Below are positions 2,159 to 3,371 of a stretch of DNA of 64,000 nucleotides, piece by piece (the stretch's first letter is position 1; each line of letters opens with the position of its first letter). The stretch spans positions 1 to 64,000 of the forward strand of contig JACPMX010000011.1 in NCBI GenBank assembly GCA_016185755.1, written 5' to 3'. The stretch is from Candidatus Woesearchaeota archaeon (GTDB taxonomy: Archaea > Nanobdellota > Nanobdellia > Woesearchaeales > GW2011-AR4). Below the pieces are notes generated by a model. It searched no databases. It was not told where the DNA came from and saw nothing but the letters and a program-made list of their open reading frames with translations. Both the position numbers and the translations under genes were made by a program.

Positions 2159-2348
2159 ACCACTGGACATCTTCAGGTCACATTTATAAAGGAAGAATTC
2201 TTACATTTTGGAAAAAGAGAACACGCAAAACTCCCAAATTAAGTATTTCGCCTTCGACAAAATCCTTTTACGCAGTTTCGCTTCAAATTCTCTTTTTTTT
2301 TGGTTCCAAAGTATTTATAGAAACAAAAAACTTTGGAGGTTGATTAAA
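2159..2348 (+). promoter_or_regulatory. Conserved promoter and structured 5' leader of LAGLIDADG element 1
   Basis: Shares long identical blocks with the reverse complement of 35520-35714; TTTATAAA box, AAAAAGAGAA/TTCTCTTTTT stem, CCAAAG/CTTTGG hairpin at the SD. Confidence 0.72.
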
Positions 2349-3371
2349 ATGAAAGAAAATAAAGAAATAGCAGAATGTGTTGGCTTATGGCTAGCAGAAG
2401 GTGATGATAAATGCAATAATGAGATTACTTTTACTAATAACCAGTTTGAGCTAATTGAATTCTTCCATAAAAATATCAAGAAATTGTTCTTAAATTATAA
2501 ATTCAATATAAGAATCTATGTTTACACTCCTAATGGCGAAAATGTAACAGTTCCGTTAGAAGTTACTAAAGTAAATAGGTACATAGACAATAGGGCAAAT
2601 AAGCCTTATTATATTTGGAGATTAGCATCCGTAGAATTACATAGAAAATGGAAGAATATTGTAGAATTGTATAAAAATAATTCTACTTTCTATGTAGACA
2701 TACTAAGAGGATTCTTTGCTGGAGAAGGAAGTATAAAATCAACTTCACATAACAGCAGATCAGTAATGATTTCTCAATTACCCAGCATTTTCTTAGAAAA
2801 AATGCTTCGACACCTTGAAATAGAATTTAAGTATCATCCTGGAAATAGGAGTTATTTCATTACTCACTGGGATAATTGGGATAAACTAGCCAAAATCAAA
2901 ATAGCTGATTTACATTCGGCAAAGAAAGAAAAATTTTGGAAAATTTATGATGAATTTAAGGAACGCCATTATAAAAGCCACCATATTATGGAGGATACAC
3001 TTCGATTGTTAATTGCCCCTTATATGACTTCTGAACTTGCAATTATTTTTGATAGAACAGAAGCCAGAATTCAAGATGTTTTAATTGACTTAAAAAGTAG
3101 GGGCGTTATCAATAATTTTAAATGTGGTCTAAAAACTTATTGGATAAAAAATGACCAAAATGTTGTAATAATATCTAAATTAAAATGGAACTATCTCAAT
3201 TTCCTAGAAAACAAACCAACAAATACGGCAGAAATAGCAAAGTTTTTTAATGTGAATTTTCATTCATCAAAAAAGAGACTTAAAGAATTAGAAAAATTAG
3301 GTCTTGTCATAAGAAAAATAGATAAAAAATGGGAAAAAATTAATCCTGCTAAAAAGGTGATTGTTTTATGA
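2349..3371 (+). CDS. LAGLIDADG homing endonuclease-like protein with C-terminal HTH-like region
   Basis: Two LAGLIDADG-type motifs: CVGLWLAEGDD and LRGFFAGEGSI; SD GGAGGT upstream of ATG 2349. Confidence 0.8.
   Translation: MKENKEIAECVGLWLAEGDDKCNNEITFTNNQFELIEFFHKNIKKLFLNYKFNIRIYVYTPNGENVTVPLEVTKVNRYIDNRANKPYYIWRLASVELHRKWKNIVELYKNNSTFYVDILRGFFAGEGSIKSTSHNSRSVMISQLPSIFLEKMLRHLEIEFKYHPGNRSYFITHWDNWDKLAKIKIADLHSAKKEKFWKIYDEFKERHYKSHHIMEDTLRLLIAPYMTSELAIIFDRTEARIQDVLIDLKSRGVINNFKCGLKTYWIKNDQNVVIISKLKWNYLNFLENKPTNTAEIAKFFNVNFHSSKKRLKELEKLGLVIRKIDKKWEKINPAKKVIVL

Follow-up and report, generated by a model that had tools for sequence, protein, structure and literature searches.

Are two LAGLIDADG-type homing endonuclease genes, lying on opposite strands of one archaeal contig, parts of a mobile unit that is defined by its promoter and RNA leader rather than by its ORF, as a first-pass annotation had proposed? 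The window, that is, the whole stretch of DNA analysed, comprises 64,000 nucleotides (G000:C6:1-64000) and is part of a 1.25-Mb MAG of a Woesearchaeota archaeon. The two elements, E1 and E2, share the five sequence blocks that had been listed for them, in the places and the order given, at 2159-2351 on the forward strand and at 35714-35517 on the reverse strand. The features concerned are these:

2161..2170, forward strand: promoter box CACTGGACAT of E1, 12 nt 5' of the TATA box
2183..2190, forward strand: TATA box TTTATAAA of E1
2212..2297, forward strand: E1 leader RNA core, a long stem with internal loops at the predicted mRNA 5' end (model R1, 94 bits; covariation)
2304..2338, forward strand: second hairpin of E1 (arms 2304-2312 and 2330-2338), overlapping the SD sequence GGAGG at 2335-2339
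2349..3371, forward strand: E1 gene for a LAGLIDADG-type homing endonuclease of 340 aa; its stop overlaps the start of rnhB
3368..4268, forward strand: rnhB (RNase HII), with an interrupted DEAGR^GP motif
3403..3424, forward strand: 22-nt insertion in rnhB with a bulge-helix-bulge (BHB) fold, a predicted intron
34413..35519, reverse strand: E2 gene for a LAGLIDADG homing endonuclease of 368 aa (LAGLIDADG_3, 24.6 bits, over the curated cut-off of 22.5)
35530..35564, reverse strand: second hairpin of E2 overlapping the SD, predicted by folding and weak alone (z = 0.1)
35570..35659, reverse strand: E2 leader RNA core (model R1, 98 bits)
35683..35690, reverse strand: TATA box TATATAAA of E2
35703..35712, reverse strand: promoter box CACTGGACAT of E2

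The E1 product matches LAGLIDADG_3 marginally, at 22.2 bits (E = 1.7e-4), slightly below the same cut-off. At 2043-2146 of the window there is a tRNA-Met gene (CAT) that ARAGORN missed, its D-loop region being lengthened by some 28 inserted nucleotides, and the tRNA at the equivalent position in G011 appears to carry three insertions. Introns in tRNAs beside the endonucleases were rejected as a property of the elements, since tRNAs 85 to 117 nt long are common across G000 in an Rfam search.

The leader RNA and the genes behind it

The genome holds five full copies of the leader and one variant. In a BLASTN search of the whole genome, the E2 copy was found with E = 9e-35, and the regions C16:99119-99266 and C1:18360-18502 with 6e-33 and 1e-32, values that leave no room for chance. 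The full leaders besides E1 and E2 are located at C16:99319 and C1:18555 (both reverse strand) and at C12:2374 (forward strand), the C12 copy (2373-2590) being more diverged; the variant, at C7:32415 on the reverse strand, is diverged as well. All six fold as one long stem with a variable apex, built in order from an outer helix AAAAAGAGAA/TTCTCTTTTT, an internal loop, GC/GC, AAACTGC/GCAGTTT, AAT/ATT and TGATTTT/AAAATCA. E1 and E2 fold alike, with a two-hairpin architecture in both (z-score of -3.84 for E2 over 35517-35663), and folding both leaders reproduced the stem pairing described in the first-pass annotation. Its picture of a variable apical region with diverging loops holds for the apex, but the inner part is conserved (AAACUGC/GCAGUUU, AAU/AUU, UGAUUUU/AAAAUCA).

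Covariation is already apparent in the alignment of the six sequences, for instance in the C7 leader, where AGAGAA/TTCTCT is replaced by AGGGCA/TGCCCT. Among 76 aligned leaders, 23 of the 29 base pairs show double-sided changes and 93% of the cells are paired; covarying cells number 163, against 33 in shuffles (none of 500 reaching that number) and far fewer in slid controls. Fitting to the model biases the 76-member alignment towards the structure, but the original six-sequence MAFFT alignment gave the same result.

A search with a covariance model, as had been suggested with the original proposal, but built from the six leaders (R1), returned about 60 strong matches in the family, distributed over most of its 36 genomes. 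In the order Woesearchaeales, 61 of 295 genomes carry the leader (model R1, E <= 0.001), patchily across some 30 families, and all matches in the 384 genomes of the class that were searched fall inside this order. In GTDB, the exact core pattern occurs on 39 contigs, each of them from a Woesearchaeota or Nanoarchaeota MAG (with titles naming Woesearchaeota, Nanoarchaeota or Nanoarchaeia). The exact core was not found in IMG/VR, leaving carriage by viruses without support. Neither of the outcomes that had been set against the proposal of a shared unit, a lack of further copies and a lack of compensatory changes, was found: copies are many and compensatory changes abundant.

The leader matches no covariance model of Rfam 15, which includes riboswitches, HEARO RNAs and group I introns; the matches at the gathering cut-off were tRNAs only, and at E values up to 1 only weak chance matches to microRNA and lncRNA models were added, so that its identity with a known RNA was rejected. 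A short uORF within the core was not conserved in the leaders inspected by eye. We found no description of the leader RNA or of the operator discussed below in the literature searched, the coverage of which was partial. The comparative evidence indicates that the leader is a structured RNA family so far undescribed in that literature.

The ORFs behind the leaders are diverse. Pfam analysis of 72 of them assigned LAGLIDADG_3 to 46 and HNH_repeat, a domain associated with homing endonucleases, to 5, the others including LAGLIDADG_1 and LAGLIDADG_2. At L230 the ORF gives a weak match to an Mrr-type nuclease domain (Mrr_cat), and at L255 (G000, C16:142969, reverse strand) a leader-like inner hairpin is followed by an Mrr-type nuclease (Mrr_cat). 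The mean alignment identity of the proteins is 8%. Leader identity in family f1 is about 0.82 regardless of the ORF (0.817 where the ORFs are unrelated, over 696 pairs from different genomes, and 0.824 where they are related, over 113 pairs), and G013 even has two leaders that are 100% identical in front of unrelated ORFs. Judged by these alignments, how similar two leaders are does not depend on how closely their ORFs are related, and nearly all the ORFs are predicted nucleases, of unrelated folds. The idea of a unit defined by promoter and leader rather than by ORF is thus borne out for the leader, the common denominator of unrelated nucleases, but not for the promoter, which is a host operator that changes with the lineage. 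Leader and ORF may travel jointly: the LAGLIDADG endonuclease at C7 is 63% identical to the L209 protein, from family f38 of the same order, and both leaders are GC-rich and f38-like, a double likeness which suggests that leader and ORF were transferred together and can move together.

Two loci deviate from this arrangement. At L125 (G004:C35) the leader precedes a gene for a 23S_rRNA_IVP (S23) protein, with no nuclease. At L129 (G004:C65:12800-16500) two leaders adjoin tRNA genes with no endonuclease ORF after them, possibly as remnants of ORF loss.

Transcript position and the hairpin at the SD

Transcription in archaea starts about 27 to 32 nt downstream of the TATA box. The TATA start lies 27 to 32 nt upstream of the RNA core (in summary terms, about 29 nt) in 53 of the 63 leaders with a recognisable TATA box, and this agreement suggests that the core is the expected mRNA 5' end.

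The linker between core and start codon holds a second hairpin, with a mean z of -2.9. In 60 of 71 linkers z is below -1.5 relative to shuffles, and a hairpin at the RBS, as in T4-type endonuclease control, is therefore found in these leaders. In family f1 its arms are TCCAAAGTTTT and AAAACTTTGGA, the 3' arm including the first bases of GGAGG; the last of the five blocks shared by E1 and E2 is this 3' arm, overlapping the first SD bases. Other lineages have different sequences with the pairing kept (CCAAACTT/AAGTTTGG, AGATTTGTTT/AAACAAATCT, CACCTC/GAGGTG, and TTCTGGAGG with TCTCCAGAA). In most members the hairpin covers just the first SD bases, and the predicted accessibility of the SD is no lower than in shuffled linkers (mean of 0.30 vs 0.31), for which reason we describe a hairpin at the SD and not sequestration of the SD.

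The leader could also be a switch sensing a ligand or a protein, in which the core, as an aptamer, binds a signal and, through an expression platform, alters the structure at the SD. Conserved internal loops within covarying stems would be expected of such a device, as would a separate SD hairpin that is variable in sequence between lineages and nearly always present, and some lineages (e.g., L204, L212, L230) have a 3' arm that could instead form pairs with the SD region. Against it, the leader has no Rfam match, and in leaders of the f1 type we found no pairing that would make core and second hairpin mutually exclusive. We regard a sensing switch as a possibility to be held tentatively, and rather doubt it.

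A promoter box common to endonucleases and host repair genes

The first-pass annotation took the conserved promoter for a property of the two elements. This did not survive a genome-wide count, since the box occurs about 22 times in G000, also at radA and at repair and replication genes. The pattern CACTGGACAT-N12(or 14)-TATA was found in 35 of the 36 family genomes (control counts of 0 to 1) and in 166 of the 295 genomes of the order; in the genus, most genomes have 5 to 29 copies. For 52 of the 76 leaders an exact box is found no more than 80 nt away, against a shuffled mean of 0.01; nine leaders have no recognisable box at two mismatches, two of which carry the variant of family f62 described below.

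In G000 the genes behind the box encode MCM, a class II ribonucleotide reductase (RNR), a Cas4/Dna2-like nuclease, RNase_H_2, a DUF763 protein and a C5-methylase, and the box at C8:5565 precedes a small-protein gene followed by radA. Among twenty boxes in distant families, six precede a gene for RadA and one a gene for UvrA, and others precede genes for Xer-type integrases and for the small protein encoded upstream of radA; xerA is thus among the host genes with the box. The radA operator is often tandem (CACTGGACACTGGACAT). A common operator before the recombinase and before repair genes, as in an SOS-like system, is therefore present. Box occurrences also lie 5' of tRNA-associated RNAs, a methylase, a toxin-like gene, a small zinc protein and a transposase, which makes "repair regulon" an incomplete description. 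From its genomic distribution, the box is a host operator, common to radA and other repair and replication genes, and not the element's own; it may mark an SOS-like regulon of host recombination and repair in these archaea. The DNA-damage regulon of the Sulfolobales, with Orc1-2 and the ANTTTC element, is a comparable case of a damage-responsive archaeal promoter element, a functional analogue of the SOS box (PMC9738581). Unlike ANTTTC, to which it is unrelated in sequence, CACTGGACAT occurs in tandem overlapping form and in another lineage, with radA itself in the set.

Further observations concern the transcripts behind the box. The radA operon has a conserved leader segment of its own, TGAAATAAAA..GCGAAAAGCAA.GG, before the small-protein gene (L258, L260, L261, L270, L272, L278, L279, L286), a further candidate cis-regulatory RNA. 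Box-driven short RNAs were seen directly upstream of intron-bearing tRNA genes, some at least of Leu type, at L038 (C3:212251, forward strand), L035 (C6:127927, forward strand), L252 (C12:130773, forward strand) and L241 (G020). Three of these four begin with a GCCGC hairpin, and they contain a partial copy of the downstream tRNA (e.g., GGAAACTAAGACC, AGATAATTGACACC, GGAAGCTTCAGAACC); possible explanations are decoys, guides or scars left by integration. At L048 (G004:C5), a box-driven ribonucleotide reductase gene has a Hint-domain match, a likely intein.

The endonuclease promoters follow the operator of their host. In f62 (G096, G185), CACTTGCCACTTGCCA is the radA operator and CCACTTGCCAA is found at the leaders; where radA has the variant CACTTGCCA in this family, the endonuclease genes have CACTTGCCA too, and two of the three f62 leader promoters examined carry CACTTGCCAA. 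G252 has CACTGGACACTGGACAGATGCCCGGCTAGGG at radA and CACTGGACACTGGACAGATGCCCGGCGAGGG at the endonuclease, and radA and endonuclease have a spacer in common in G187 (TTCTCACACA) and in G004 (GGCGCTGTGAA). For 27 endonuclease promoters from 13 genomes, similarity to the radA promoter of the same genome was 15.8, compared with 11.0 +/- 0.8 with genomes permuted (p = 5e-5; p = 2e-4 when balanced by genome), a test that leaves in some phylogeny, the f1 genomes being related. E1 itself is not a good match to its own radA promoter, which ranks only fifth of 13 for it. Over the whole set, these comparisons indicate that the endonuclease promoter box covaries with the host radA operator.

Might the box simply be a general strong-promoter or cell-cycle element, which the endonucleases carry merely for expression? 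MCM and RNR would fit an S-phase regulon, and the tRNA-associated RNAs, small zinc protein, methylase and toxin-like genes behind the box would suit a promoter of general use. Nevertheless, the box is rare, it is found before RadA, UvrA, MCM, RNR, Xer and Cas4-like genes, and its variant tracks radA, so that we consider this explanation unlikely.

The RNase HII gene and the proposed unit

The rnhB gene that overlaps the end of E1 has 22 nt inserted among the codons for its active-site motif, DEAGRG, and these introduce a stop in frame. In G000 the insertion can be folded with AGA and TAAG bulges around a 4-bp helix (AGGC/GCCT), the second bulge having 4 nt and not 3, and excision restores DEAGRGP in the exact frame, as expected of a BHB intron. 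Translational bypass is disfavoured, since the conserved glycine would be missing after a landing on AGG. We predict that the insertion is a BHB intron spliced out of the transcript; short BHB introns occur in archaeal protein genes such as cbf5 (PMC2738675).

G019 has the same insertion (with one loop change, T to C) and an E1-type endonuclease that is 78% identical, and the motif is intact in the ten other readable genomes of the genus (G004, G006, G010, G011, G012, G013, G017, G018, G020, G021), several of which have other leader-endonucleases upstream of rnhB. Insertion and E1-type endonuclease thus occur together in both carriers and in none of the ten other genomes, a count that is suggestive only, since the two carriers may share one ancestral event; it would fit a co-mobile insertion. 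The region upstream of rnhB is also a hot spot, with at least three different leader-endonucleases (G000, G019, G004, G013, G017, G021). A T4 homing endonuclease likewise adjoins the 50-nt insert of gene 60, which may protect the target (reviewed in PMC5009743), and in both cases the endonuclease is free-standing and has as its neighbour a conserved gene with a short non-coding insert (PMC5009743). Unlike that insert, the 22 nt of rnhB fold as a BHB intron, the splicing of which would restore the exact frame, whereas bypass would lose the conserved glycine. Woesearchaeota also have group I introns with LAGLIDADG ORFs, in which LAGLIDADG enzymes are intron movers (PMC6125680); in contrast to these, the endonuclease here lies outside the intron and has its own promoter and leader, and the leader is not an intron.

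Taken together, these are probably free-standing homing-endonuclease units of Woesearchaeales that use the host recombination and repair regulon together with a dedicated RNA leader limiting translation. Each unit consists of the host operator CACTGGACAT (often tandem), 12 nt, a TATA box, a 5'-terminal structured RNA, a second hairpin at the SD and a nuclease ORF. The host factor controlling radA would also control the nucleases, so that cutting would fall at times when the recombination machinery is available, by which the element is copied into the cut allele. Control specific to the nucleases would come from the leader as a second layer, which would limit or gate the translation of a toxic enzyme, by analogy with the RBS hairpins of T4, and the unit would spread by homing beside its target, a mobility suggested by the patchy distribution and by site occupancy rather than observed. 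For E1 the likely target is the active-site codons of RNase HII, where the BHB intron would destroy the site and splicing restore the protein. In a more far-reaching version, which we put forward only as a conjecture, a dedicated aptamer-like 5' RNA would sense a cellular signal and gate endonucleases of any fold, atop an SOS-like radA/uvrA/RNR/MCM regulon of DPANN archaea adopted by operator matching.

Two further readings of the leader fare worse. A role of the RNA in trans, or as guide or cofactor for the nuclease after the fashion of HEARO RNAs or the IscB/TnpB omega RNA, would suit a conserved RNA with a stable fold and a variable apex directly 5' of a nuclease ORF, but it is very improbable given the unrelated folds of the nucleases, the SD hairpin in the same transcript and the absence of a variable guide segment at any fixed place seen. 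Equally remote is a hairpin working as DNA (a binding site, homing site or transposition end) with incidental transcription: selected DNA hairpins or inverted repeats would covary too, so that the covariation test cannot separate the two, but the fixed TATA distance, the asymmetric internal loops conserved on one strand, the RNA-type second hairpin at the SD and the single core common to nucleases of different specificity all oppose it.

The logic of the favoured units, host-regulon timing plus a translation-limiting leader, has a precedent in the T4 homing endonucleases (I-TevI, segB, mobE, seg43(25)), which are controlled both by the timing of promoters and by hairpins at the RBS (PMC2988022), whereas the parts are new. 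In both systems the endonuclease mRNA has a stable hairpin that coincides with the RBS or immediately precedes it, and in seg43(25) the RBS is just below the stem, like in most leaders here (PMC2988022). The T4 hairpins are individual and timed by phage promoters (PMC2988022), whereas the units described here have one RNA family with a 5'-terminal covarying domain before unrelated nucleases, in about 30 archaeal families, and a host repair operator.

These findings point to a new structured RNA family common to unrelated selfish nucleases and to a candidate SOS-like operator in DPANN archaea, for which none was described in the literature searched. With the box as a handle, the regulator and the complete regulon could be sought in these organisms although they are scarcely cultivable, and operator matching makes it testable whether selfish endonucleases time their cutting to host recombinational repair. 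Such matching suggests that selfish genes in Woesearchaeota cut DNA when the cell is equipped for repair.
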